The notes beneath the pieces are model-generated. The model was not told where the DNA came from, did not search any database, and saw only the letters and a program-made list of their open reading frames with translations. The position numbers were made by a program, and so were the translations under genes. A stretch of DNA of 64,000 bases from Rubrobacter taiwanensis (GTDB lineage: Bacteria; Actinomycetota; Rubrobacteria; Rubrobacterales; Rubrobacteraceae), in assembly GCF_004337705.1 (NCBI RefSeq), contig NZ_SKBU01000023.1, positions 1 through 64,000 on the forward strand, in the 5' to 3' direction. Below are positions 1-6,618 of this stretch, piece after piece (the stretch's first letter is position 1; every line of letters starts with the position of its first letter).

Positions 1-328
1 CCTCCTTGACCGCCTCAAGATGCCCCTTCTCAAGCACCCCAGCCGTAACAGCCGCCTCGTAGGCGTCGTCGGGCAGCACATCCCACCCCCCAAATACCAG
101 ATCCTCAAGCCTATAGAGAGGGACGAAGTCTTTGATCTTCGGCACGCGGTTCTCGGTGCGCTTGCCCAGACGAATGGTGCCCATCTGGGTCAGGGAACCG
201 ACCGGCCGGCCGAGCCCTCTCTTGATCAGCTCCACCCCCGCGATGAAGGCGGTGGAGACCGCCCCCATGCCCACCAGAAGTACCCCCAGCTTCCCGGAAG
301 GCTCCCGGATCTCCCTGCCCTTGCTCAT
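1..328 (-). CDS. ino1: Inositol-3-phosphate synthase, N-terminal part (cut by window edge)
   Basis: This encodes the first 109 residues of myo-inositol-1-phosphate synthase, which turns glucose-6-phosphate into inositol-1-phosphate for phosphatidylinositol and inositol-based solutes. The frame begins at an ATG (326-328) behind an AGGAG-type ribosome site. It shows the NAD-binding start GKLGVLLVGMGAVSTAF (residues about 13-28), then SLTQMGTIRLGKRTENR and KIKDFVPLYRLEDLVFGGWD, all hallmarks of the actinobacterial form. The frame stays open to base 1, so the catalytic C-terminal two thirds lie outside the window. The upstream gene is divergent. Identity is secure; whether the whole gene is intact cannot be judged. 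Confidence 0.93.
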   Translation of the reverse strand, partial: MSKGREIREPSGKLGVLLVGMGAVSTAFIAGVELIKRGLGRPVGSLTQMGTIRLGKRTENRVPKIKDFVPLYRLEDLVFGGWDVLPDDAYEAAVTAGVLEKGHLEAVKE

Positions 329-404
329 CCAGAGCTCCTCTCACTCGGGTACGTCTCGCCCAACACCGGGTAGCATACTCGAAGATCCCGGTGCAAGTTC
401 CGGT

Positions 405-411
405 TATAAAT
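405..411 (+). promoter_or_regulatory. -10 element giving a likely leaderless start
   Basis: TATAAAT ends 6 bases before the ATG at 418, and no purine-rich ribosome site lies between. Transcription starting about 7 bases after the -10 element would begin at or next to the start codon. A clear -35 is not obvious. Confidence 0.4.
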
Positions 412-417
412 ACAACC

Positions 418-1116
418 ATGAGACTACGAGAGTTCATACACCGCCTGCACGAAAACCCGATGTTGGTCATAGGGCTGCAGCTGGCCGCCGGACTCACCCT
501 GGCGCTCACGCTGCTGCTGGGCTTCGAATCGCTGGCAGAAGAGGTCTTCGAGGGCGAAACACACCGGCTGGATGAGGCGATCCTGAACTGGATCCACACC
601 ACCTTCCCCCCGCACCTCGAACCGCTCATGCTCGCCGTAACAGCGCTAGGTTACTACTGGTTCGTGGGCATCCTGCTGGCCATCGCCGCCCCAGCCCTGT
701 ACCTTCGGGGCCTGCGCTTCTCGGCCGCCCTGCTCACGATCTCAACCGCAGGCAGCATGGTGATCACTACCGCCCTGAAAGCGCTCTACCAGCGCGCCCG
801 GCCCGAACTCTTCCAGACGGACTACGTAGCCTCGTTCTACTCCTTCCCGAGCGGACACGCTACCATCTCGGTCGGATTCTACGGCGTCCTCACGATCATC
901 ATCGCCAGCCGGCTCCGGGGAGCGAGCCGCTGGGCTATCTGTACCCTGGGCCTGACCCTGATGATGGCCATAGGATTCTCCCGCCTCTACCTGGGCGTGC
1001 ACTACCCGAGCGATATCCTCGCCGGATACTTGACCGCCGGCTTCTGGGCCGCCACGGCAGCCTCAACCCTCTACACCTGGCGCCTCCTGCGAACCGTGAA
1101 AACACGCAAACACTGA
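418..1116 (+). CDS. PAP2-family membrane phosphatase
   Basis: A 232-residue integral membrane protein of the type 2 phosphatidic acid phosphatase family, likely removing phosphate from a lipid such as phosphatidate, phosphatidylglycerol phosphate or undecaprenyl pyrophosphate at the membrane. The three signature motifs are present in order: K-x6-RP (KALYQRARPEL), SGH (SFPSGHAT) and SR-x5-H-x3-D (SRLYLGVHYPSDILAGY). About six hydrophobic segments surround them. I chose ATG 418 because the first motif-bearing helix follows soon after; a GTG at 391 is in frame but has no ribosome site. It converges on the GNAT gene across a DnaA-box palindrome. The substrate cannot be read from sequence. Confidence 0.88.
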   Translation: MRLREFIHRLHENPMLVIGLQLAAGLTLALTLLLGFESLAEEVFEGETHRLDEAILNWIHTTFPPHLEPLMLAVTALGYYWFVGILLAIAAPALYLRGLRFSAALLTISTAGSMVITTALKALYQRARPELFQTDYVASFYSFPSGHATISVGFYGVLTIIIASRLRGASRWAICTLGLTLMMAIGFSRLYLGVHYPSDILAGYLTAGFWAATAASTLYTWRLLRTVKTRKH

Positions 1117-1131
1117 ACGGCCGGCACGCAA

Positions 1132-1163
1132 TTATCCACTTATCCACAACATGTTGTGGATAA
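1132..1163. promoter_or_regulatory. Cluster of three DnaA-box sequences in a perfect palindrome
   Basis: TTATCCACT (1132-1140) overlaps by one base a consensus DnaA box TTATCCACA (1140-1148), which is mirrored by TGTGGATAA (1155-1163). Bases 1140-1163 form a perfect 24-base palindrome. It lies between the 3' ends of two convergent genes, so it is not an ordinary promoter operator. It could bind DnaA (titration or reactivation type site), or the stem could act as a weak bidirectional terminator. Confidence 0.6.
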
Positions 1164-1193: not shown

Positions 1194-1703
1194 TCAGTCC
1201 AGGAGCTTCGCCATGGCGTACTCATCCAGGTAGCGGCCGTCCACCAGCAGGGAGTGTTTTCTGGTGCCCTCGATCTCGAATCCCATCTTCCTGTACAGCG
1301 CGATTCCGGCCGTGTTATGCGTCATGACGGTAAGCTCCAGGCGGTGTACGCCGCTCCGGCGTGCCCAGGCTTCCAGGCGTTCGAACAGGCGGGTTCCGAT
1401 ACCCCGGCCGGTAAACTCCTGCAGGATACCGACTATTATGAGCGCCGAATGCCGCTTCCGGCGCACCCGGCCGCCGAAGGCTCCGAGGAGGCCCACCAGC
1501 TCGCCTCCCCCGTCGACGACCAGCAGCGTGCTATTCTCCTGTGCCTTCACCTCCCGGATTCTCCGCCGCATCTCATCCGCCGTATGCCGGCGTTCGCCCG
1601 GTTCGTAGAGCATGAAGCTGGTCTCCCAATCCAGCTTCGTGTAGAGGTTCAGGAGCGCTCCGGCATCGCTCTCCCGGGCTTCCCGGATCTCCGGTTCAGA
1701 CAT
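1194..1703 (-). CDS. GNAT-family N-acetyltransferase
   Basis: A 169-residue GCN5-related acetyltransferase that would transfer an acetyl group from acetyl-CoA to an amine of unknown identity in the cytoplasm. The acetyl-CoA loop is seen as EFTGRGIGTRLFERLEAWAR (about residues 102-121; Q/R-x-x-G-x-G/A pattern), followed by LELTVMTHNTAGIALYRKMGF, a standard RimI/PhnO-type end. The length is normal for a single GNAT domain. It starts at ATG 1703, 18 bases after the stop of the 2H phosphoesterase gene, so the two are probably cotranscribed. Nothing in the sequence fixes the substrate. Confidence 0.85.
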   Translation of the reverse strand: MSEPEIREARESDAGALLNLYTKLDWETSFMLYEPGERRHTADEMRRRIREVKAQENSTLLVVDGGGELVGLLGAFGGRVRRKRHSALIIVGILQEFTGRGIGTRLFERLEAWARRSGVHRLELTVMTHNTAGIALYRKMGFEIEGTRKHSLLVDGRYLDEYAMAKLLD

Positions 1704-4940: not shown

Positions 4941-5720
4941 TCACCTGTGGGAGAGCCTCAGGCTCTCCCAGCTCCCGTCAGAAGCCCAGCCGCCGTCCAC
5001 CGAGAGGGCGTGGCCGTTTACGTAACCGCTCTCGACCGGGTCGGCGAGGAAGGCGACGGCCCGGGCGACGTCCTGCGGGCGCGCGAACCGGCCCATCGGG
5101 GTGCGCCCCTCGATGTCCGCGTCCGTATATCCGCCGCCGGCCTGGTCCTCCTCGTCCATCTCGGTCTTGACCCAGCCGGGGCACACGGCGTTAACCCGCA
5201 CCCCGCGGCCACCCCACTCCGCCGCCAGCGTGCGCGTCAGCCCGACGAGCCCGTGCTTGCTGGCGTTGTACGCCGAGCGGTCGGCAACCCCCAGAAGCCC
5301 GGCCACAGAGCTTACGTTCACGATGCTCCCCGCGCCCTGCTCCAGCATCGCCCGCCCGAACTCCCGGCACATGAGAAACGGGCCGGTGAGGTTCACCTCC
5401 AGCACCCGCCGCCAGTCCTCCGGCCTCGTCTCCTCGGCCGGGGAGATGTGGCTGATGCCGGCGTTGTTCACCAGCACGTCCGCACGCCCGAACCGGCCGG
5501 ACACCTCCGCCAGCATCCGCTCCGCATCCTCCTCGTTCGAAACGTCGCCGGGCAGTGGGAGCGCTGTGGCTCCCAGCTTCTCCACCTCCTCCACGGTCGC
5601 CTCAGGAGCCCGCAGGTCGTTCGCAGCGACCGCGTACCCGCGCCGGGCCAGCTCCAGCGCGACCTCCCGCCCGATGCCGCGGGCCGCTCCCGTGACGACC
5701 GCGACCCGCAGCTCAGTCAT
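4941..5720 (-). CDS. Short-chain dehydrogenase/reductase
   Basis: A 259-residue classical SDR using NAD(P)H to oxidise or reduce an alcohol/carbonyl in the cytoplasm. The cofactor loop is VTGAARGIG (residues 9-17), NNAG follows near residue 88, and the catalytic triad is Ser in VSSVAG plus Y-x3-K in YNASKHG. Asp after the second strand (ANDLRAP) favours NAD. It overlaps the 3' end of the upstream epimerase gene by 8 bases, so the two are coupled. The last ten residues (SWESLRLSHR) come from a hairpin that also looks like the terminator of the convergent transporter gene. The substrate is unknown. Confidence 0.85.
   Translation of the reverse strand: MTELRVAVVTGAARGIGREVALELARRGYAVAANDLRAPEATVEEVEKLGATALPLPGDVSNEEDAERMLAEVSGRFGRADVLVNNAGISHISPAEETRPEDWRRVLEVNLTGPFLMCREFGRAMLEQGAGSIVNVSSVAGLLGVADRSAYNASKHGLVGLTRTLAAEWGGRGVRVNAVCPGWVKTEMDEEDQAGGGYTDADIEGRTPMGRFARPQDVARAVAFLADPVESGYVNGHALSVDGGWASDGSWESLRLSHR
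4948..4970 (+). terminator. Hairpin serving as terminator of the UMF1 gene, inside the SDR 3' end
   Basis: TGGGAGAGCC - TCA - GGCTCTCCCA is a perfect 10-bp stem with a 3-base loop, 11 bases after the transporter stop codon. There is no T-run. It lies inside the last codons of the convergent SDR gene. Confidence 0.5.
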
Positions 5721-6618
5721 CCCGCGCCCCCGCGCCGGGCCTCAGCCGGCCGTTCTCGTCCAGGTAGTCCCGCCAGGAACGTCTGGGGGAGTAGCCCAGC
5801 ATCCGCTCCGCCTTGGCGCAGGAGATCCCGGCCGCGTCCTCGCGGGGGAGGGCCCGGATCTCGGGCGCCCGGTCGCCGTAGTACTTCTCGACCAGCTCCC
5901 GGAACGGCCGCCCCGTGCAGTTGTCCGGGGAGGCTATGTAGAAGACCTCGTGGCCCGGCAGGTCGCTCTCGACGGCGAGCCGGATCGCGTCCGCCAGGTC
6001 GTAGAGGTCTACGTAGCTCCAGAAGTTGGGCGAGAGGATGGAGGGGTCGCGTACCTGCGGTCCCAGGTTGCGCTCGTAGTTGCCCTCCCACTGCACCCAG
6101 CTCGGCCGGATAGAGATGCACCGGATATCGCTGCGGCGCACGGCGGCGTCCATGAGCTGCTCGGAGAAGTGCTTGGCGAGGGCGTAGGGGTCCTGCGGCC
6201 GGACCGGGTGCTCCTCGTTCACCGGCACGTAGTCCGGCAGGAACGGCCGCTCCGGGAAGAAGAAACCCGGCACCGTCTCGCTGGAGATGTTCACGAACCG
6301 CCGCACTCCGAAGCGCACCGCGGCCTCGACCGCGTTGAAGACCGCCATCAGGTTGTTCTCGAAGACCACGTGCGGCGGGTTTTTAGTCGGTTCCGGGATC
6401 GCGGCCGCGTGCACCACGGCCTCCGCCCCGCGCACGACGGCGAAGGCGTCGCCCGCGTCCGCGAGGTCCGCCTGGACGTAGGGCAGCTCGCCCGGCAGCG
6501 GGCGTTCGAAGACGGGAGGCCCCAGGTCCGTCGTTGTGACCTCGTGTCCTGCATCGGCGAGCGCGGCAGCCGCCGCACTCCCGACCTTGCCCCGTGCTCC
6601 GGTCACCAGTACGCGCAT
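5713..6618 (-). CDS. NAD-dependent epimerase/dehydratase (extended SDR)
   Basis: A 301-residue extended SDR. Its Rossmann loop [10 protein letters not shown] is at residues 6-15, Ser comes in NISSETV and the active pair in YALAKHF (Y-x3-K). Family members act on nucleotide sugars, aldoses or uronates (uronate dehydrogenases look similar). I chose ATG 6618 because MRVLVTG puts the glycine loop at the very N-terminus and AAAGGAAC precedes it; an earlier in-frame start would add 19 unlikely residues. It is followed by the overlapping SDR gene, so they form an operon divergent from the aldo/keto reductase. The exact substrate cannot be settled. Confidence 0.82.

Follow-up and report, generated by a model that had tools for sequence, protein, structure and literature searches.

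A single-copy palindromic DnaA-box element remote from oriC and conserved in the Rubrobacteraceae is a candidate DnaA control site

Introduction

The timing of initiation by DnaA-binding sites that lie remote from the replication origin has been worked out mainly in Escherichia coli. In this bacterium the DnaA-reactivating sequences (DARS) stimulate the loss of ADP from ADP-DnaA and so raise ATP-DnaA. DARS1 reads TTATCCACT-ATTCC-TGTGGATAA-CCA-TGTGTATTA, with box starts 14 and 12 bp apart, and DARS2 is spaced likewise. A prominent feature of the DARS elements is that box I is placed opposite boxes II and III, with head-to-head contact between DnaA molecules (PMC5742627). The essential boxes of datA all run in one direction, and datA moved to the terminus no longer prevents untimely initiation (PMC5742627). 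Clusters of DnaA boxes outside oriC repress early initiation in Bacillus subtilis and Streptomyces coelicolor (PMC5742627; PMC13220808), and according to a 2026 review it is unknown whether B. subtilis regulates the ADP/ATP balance of its DnaA (PMC13220808). In Actinomycetes, domain I of DnaA has been described as dimerizing head to head (PMC13270200).

In the literature consulted, DARS elements are known only from Proteobacteria, and a literature search for DARS in Actinobacteria found none. A search for Rubrobacter together with dif or oriC also returned nothing, and the accessible parts of the Rubrobacter DnaA-box literature contained nothing on the site that is the subject of this report. 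A small, gene-separable site in a deep actinobacterial lineage would make DnaA control loci outside the Proteobacteria directly testable. Here we analyse a candidate for such a site in a window of Rubrobacter taiwanensis DNA, the window being the whole stretch of 64,000 nucleotides that was analysed.

Results

The element comprises three DnaA boxes in the short gap between two convergent genes (Table 1). The original prediction, made from the window by itself, described two consensus boxes that form a perfect 24-bp palindrome and a near-consensus third box overlapping by one base, all within 77 bases between convergent genes, and this description holds in every part. The inverted repeat has arms of 12 nt that match at 100% and no loop, and it is the only inverted repeat of at least 10 nt between positions 900 and 1400. 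Box III ends on the first base of box II, and the gap (1117-1193) is indeed 77 bp long, with neighbours that Pfam identifies as a PAP2-family phosphatase and a GNAT acetyltransferase.

Table 1. Positions of the element and its neighbouring genes in the window
Feature	Position	Strand	Remarks
MIPS gene fragment	2..328	-	myo-inositol-1-phosphate synthase by Pfam; cut by the contig end
PAP2-family phosphatase gene	391..1116	+	Pfam; 3' end facing the site
Box III	1132..1140	+	TTATCCACT; same direction as box II, which it overlaps by 1 bp
Palindrome, 24 bp, perfect	1140..1163		TTATCCACAACATGTTGTGGATAA; two convergent consensus DnaA boxes and a 6-bp centre
Box II	1140..1148	+	TTATCCACA
Palindrome centre	1149..1154		ACATGT; reads AAnATnTT with the flanking A and T
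Box I	1155..1163	-	TTATCCACA when read on the - strand (TGTGGATAA on the + strand); faces box II
GNAT acetyltransferase gene	1194..1703	-	Pfam; convergent on the site

The source genome (G000) is a 3.04-Mb draft in 57 contigs, and the window lies on contig C15. The 9-mer TTATCCACA occurs 28 times in this genome, while its reversed control occurs twice. As 22 of the 28 copies are located at oriC/dnaA (C12:68456-71171), the 9-mer is the DnaA box of the source genome; the other six consist of four single boxes and the pair reported here. The window contains two copies where 0.13 would be expected. With up to three mismatches allowed, no further TTATCCACA-N6-TGTGGATAA pair was found genome-wide, the site being the only pair outside oriC/dnaA, and the expected number of convergent N6 pairs, computed from the four stray single boxes, is about 1e-6.

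The view that the site is not itself the origin proved correct. oriC was found on contig C12 between dnaN and dnaA, a region made up of dnaN, an array of 18 boxes, dnaA and, upstream of dnaA, a further cluster of boxes, and oriC identity was rejected for the present site because the dense box cluster beside dnaA/dnaN is the one on C12. That region holds a second conserved trio of DnaA boxes, upstream of dnaA (C12:71139-71171 in the source genome, L058; also in G016, G019 and G008), in which the starts are 12 and 12 bp apart and one box is inverted (TTATCCACA-N3-TGTGGATAA-N3-TGTGGATAA when read one way). This trio probably serves dnaA autoregulation. An open reading frame of 356 amino acids (C12:70274-71341, - strand; L058), directly upstream of dnaA, spans the DnaA-box region; its C-terminal part appears ATPase-like by eye, and its start codon is uncertain.

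Conservation in relatives, which could not be seen from the window, was assessed across the family with a threshold of at most three mismatches over 22 fixed positions. The palindrome was present in 37 of 39 Rubrobacteraceae genomes, and in 22 of 22 high-quality ones; the two genomes that lack it are 60% and 77% complete. There is one copy per genome, save in two genomes with an additional match at three mismatches, and most of the named records that carry it belong to Rubrobacter or Rubrobacteraceae. With the source-genome site turned to its - strand, which is how it corresponds to the loci of its relatives, the shared architecture is TTATCCACA-N6-TGTGGATAA-N12-GGTGGATAA, found in 33 of the 37 loci. 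The gap between boxes II and III is 12 bp in 33 loci, 11 bp in three and -1 bp in the source genome. In the orientation of the window the relatives' box III reads TTATCCACC, lies 11-12 bp from box II, and is the oriC 9-mer with one or two changes. Box III of the source genome, whose genus is represented by one draft genome in the comparison, probably corresponds to this box, the spacer having been lost.

Strong conservation is limited to the boxes and the palindrome centre and does not extend into the flanks. The genus-weighted information content per column reaches 1.76 bits in the palindrome and 1.79 bits in box III, compared with 0.31 bits upstream and 0.51 bits in the spacer, which shows that the limits of the third conserved block are exactly those of a 9-mer DnaA box. 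Most relatives (L031-L057) have a weaker conserved motif, TGTAACAAG-N3-TTAAC, at a distance of 10-30 bp past box III. It is missing from the source genome and g2, and is possibly a promoter or a further part of the element.

Outside the family, matches to the palindrome occur in Limosilactobacillus, Clostridium, Lachnospiraceae and others, in contexts that were mixed on inspection, and we propose no common element for them. In two Limosilactobacillus loci (L073, L075) and one from Lachnospiraceae (L086) the same palindrome is present and a third DnaA-like box comes after it, at 20-21 bp from the second; the L086 palindrome has murC and a DnaD/DnaC-like gene pair next to it (by eye). The comparison within the Actinomycetota covered a sample of 296 genomes, and thus a similar element with another spacing elsewhere in the phylum could be missed.

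Because oriC is built of repeats of this 9-mer, and box III repeats it once more with one or two changes, DnaA is the first candidate for the bound protein, and from the sequence we infer that DnaA would occupy the site. The DnaA of the source genome retains K178 (Walker), D269 (sensor-1), R285 and L290 (E. coli numbering), and the domain-IV contact residues R399, D433, H434, T435 and T436 are kept. It should be emphasized that these residues are widely conserved, and their retention therefore means only that nothing is missing. In the aligned loci AAnATnTT is conserved beyond the need of two 9-bp boxes, and for the palindrome centre an NrdR-type repressor is the alternative to be taken most seriously. 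It could be argued that the Zn-ribbon dimer of NrdR, or another palindrome-binding repressor, sits on the inner CCACAAnATnTTGTGG, and that the match to DnaA boxes is partly coincidental or the site composite. DnaA boxes alone do not account for AAnATnTT, and there is a resemblance to an NrdR box in the inner 16 bp, the interior of the palindrome agreeing with the 16-bp NrdR pattern at most positions. NrdR is also present in six of six family genomes tested; near-matches are located directly upstream of nrdR in other Actinomycetota families (L182, L183), and a Peptostreptococcaceae near-match lies 197 bp before an nrdD-like gene.

NrdR boxes, however, are paired 16-bp palindromes (PMC12051234). 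The two members lie 15-16 (or 24-27) bp apart, whereas no second box is visible near the single palindrome described here and no ribonucleotide reductase (RNR) gene adjoins it. In addition, the nrdR-nrdJ promoters of the Rubrobacteraceae bear a different version of the box (AAAATGTGGTGT / ATACCAGATRTGGTGT), a difference that lowers the standing of NrdR as an alternative. Conservation of the outer TTAT/ATAA and of the separate 9-mer of box III, GGTGGATAA, is roughly equal to that of the centre, which also speaks against a repressor on the interior. In three genomes no other copies of the core were found with at most one mismatch, and two-mismatch matches were at the level of the control; a transcription-factor regulon was ruled out on this ground. 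Binding of NrdR or a similar repressor is thus an unlikely explanation of the site. The NrdR boxes of L182 and L183 can resemble paired DnaA boxes, and are a trap for searches based on such boxes.

The immediate gene context of the element varies. It is found at convergent 3' ends in the source genome, g2 and g9, and upstream of MIPS or SufT elsewhere. The MIPS gene lies on the side of box III, where synteny with relatives such as L108 and L111 is conserved, and the PAP2 gene, which is not beside the site in the relatives examined, has apparently been inserted between the site and MIPS; the GNAT gene is not beside the site in relatives either. Common neighbour families are MscS, NUDIX, NTP-transferase/CDP-alcohol transferase, MIPS, SufT-like and UPF0047, and also AlkA-like, NDH-2, PgsA and RecQ. 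Pfam backs MscS, NUDIX, NTP-transferase, MIPS, SufT-like and UPF0047, the remaining families being assigned by sequence reading; gene calls in relatives were simple ORF picks and were used only when backed by Pfam or by family. In G020 an IS1595-type transposase gene adjoins the site, which is undisrupted (L099, G020:C1, locus coordinates 5279-6037). As the site is kept although its neighbours have been swapped, local gene regulation or termination is a poor fit.

DnaA regulates genes in other bacteria, and at this locus it might control transcription of the neighbouring operon (SufT or MIPS). The site is found a little upstream of SufT or MIPS in many relatives, and TGTAACAAG-N3-TTAAC after box III could be promoter sequence. 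The downstream gene, however, varies between genera, and in the source genome, g2 and g9, where the site has convergent 3' ends on both sides and no role in a promoter, it still differs from the perfect palindrome by 0-1 mismatch (none in the source genome and all three g2 genomes, one in g9). An intact palindrome where there is no promoter indicates that the transcription of one neighbour does not explain its retention, and regulation of the adjacent operon would accordingly be an improbable role.

A perfect palindrome between convergent genes might also be read as a terminator or RNA hairpin. The RNA stem would be 10 bp, and two degenerate orthologues (L115, L117) have kept much of their symmetry through paired changes. 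There is, however, no T run and no match resembling an intrinsic terminator, and the fold is ordinary (z-score -1.33); the terminator reading was dropped on these two grounds, the absent T run and the ordinary fold. The element also occurs once per genome, its sequence is conserved rather than pairing alone, box III falls outside the hairpin, and the sites of many relatives are not at 3' ends. The palindrome is thus not a common feature of convergent 3' ends, as it would have been if the original prediction were mistaken: it is present once in the source genome and once in relatives, with an occasional weak second match. A role in termination is very unlikely indeed.

In six complete or near-complete genomes the distance of the site from oriC, as a fraction of the circumference, is 0.382 (G019), 0.413 (G020), 0.416 (G016), about 0.41 (G004), 0.393 (G008) and 0.428 (G023). 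The site lies on either arm, and in each of the six genomes box III is on its terminus side. This pattern would arise from symmetric inversions around oriC even without selection on position. As the palindrome is single-copy, has a centre of 6 bp and lies on the terminus side of the chromosome, it could suggest a terminus or dimer-resolution (dif-like) site. In three complete genomes, however, where the GC skew switches near 0.46 (G019), 0.55 (G020) and 0.50 (G016), the site is terminus-side yet 230-600 kb off the switch; its arms are DnaA boxes, and an additional box of the same type lies 12 bp away. The GC-skew sampling disfavours the dif/terminus reading, which we consider scarcely credible.

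Late replication also bears on whether the element is a sink that titrates or inactivates DnaA, in the manner of datA or of the DnaA-box clusters of B. subtilis. In favour of a sink, the site is a cluster of DnaA boxes outside oriC, and its host is an actinomycete. Three boxes, however, offer little capacity against the 22 at oriC/dnaA, replication reaches the site late (at 0.38-0.43 of the circumference), and boxes I and II face each other, unlike the essential boxes of datA. We therefore regard a sink as distinctly improbable.

Discussion

The proposal that the locus is a remote DnaA control site is supported by its single copy and by its family-wide conservation, with DnaA the putative binder. 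The element has a defined box content, is unique in its genome, is conserved in the family, keeps a fixed spacing in relatives, is independent of gene context and lies far from oriC. Near letter-for-letter conservation in the family, far from oriC, suggests a hidden control point for the start of replication. Judged on these features, the chances are about even that the element is a single-copy remote DnaA control site of the Rubrobacteraceae, for which a DARS-like action would be the leading, although unproven, mechanism.

According to this mechanism, boxes I and II would each take up one DnaA molecule, the two facing each other, and box III would take up a third, oriented as on box II. The head-to-head layout would be unable to build the head-to-tail ATP-DnaA filament of oriC. 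A small complex of DnaA, possibly in its ADP form, may shift the nucleotide state or the availability of DnaA and in this way tune initiation at oriC, as is envisaged for a DARS-like site. That the effect would be nucleotide exchange, as at DARS, rather than another effect on DnaA is only suggested by topology and position. A more specific and more tentative possibility, which we consider rather unlikely, is that the locus may be a DARS-type reactivating site outside the Proteobacteria, in which a late-replicating set of three boxes, spaced in a manner of its own around a core that is a symmetric palindrome, would hold a head-to-head DnaA complex that resets the nucleotide state.

With datA and the B. 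subtilis and S. coelicolor clusters the element shares remote intergenic boxes outside oriC and dnaA. datA, however, which also has an IHF site, needs an origin-proximal place and a single box direction, whereas the site described here consists of few, facing boxes and is late-replicating. The trio upstream of dnaA is likewise conserved and has three boxes of which one is inverted, but it is spaced 12/12 and lies next to oriC; as it has the same topology as the present site, three-box orientation is unspecific and is weak evidence, and the site is for this reason not classed as a DARS. Relative to DARS1 and DARS2 the box starts differ, at 15 and 21 bp in relatives and 15 and 8 bp in the source genome against 14 and 12 bp. 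The Rubrobacteraceae site is also a perfect palindrome with a conserved AAnATnTT centre, and belongs to a different phylum; no IHF- or Fis-like accessory site was identified at the element. The likeness to DARS1 and DARS2 resides in the three-box core in which box I faces boxes II and III, in the short gap between boxes I and II (5 bp in E. coli and 6 bp in the Rubrobacteraceae), and in an intergenic single locus far from oriC whose relative position is kept among relatives.
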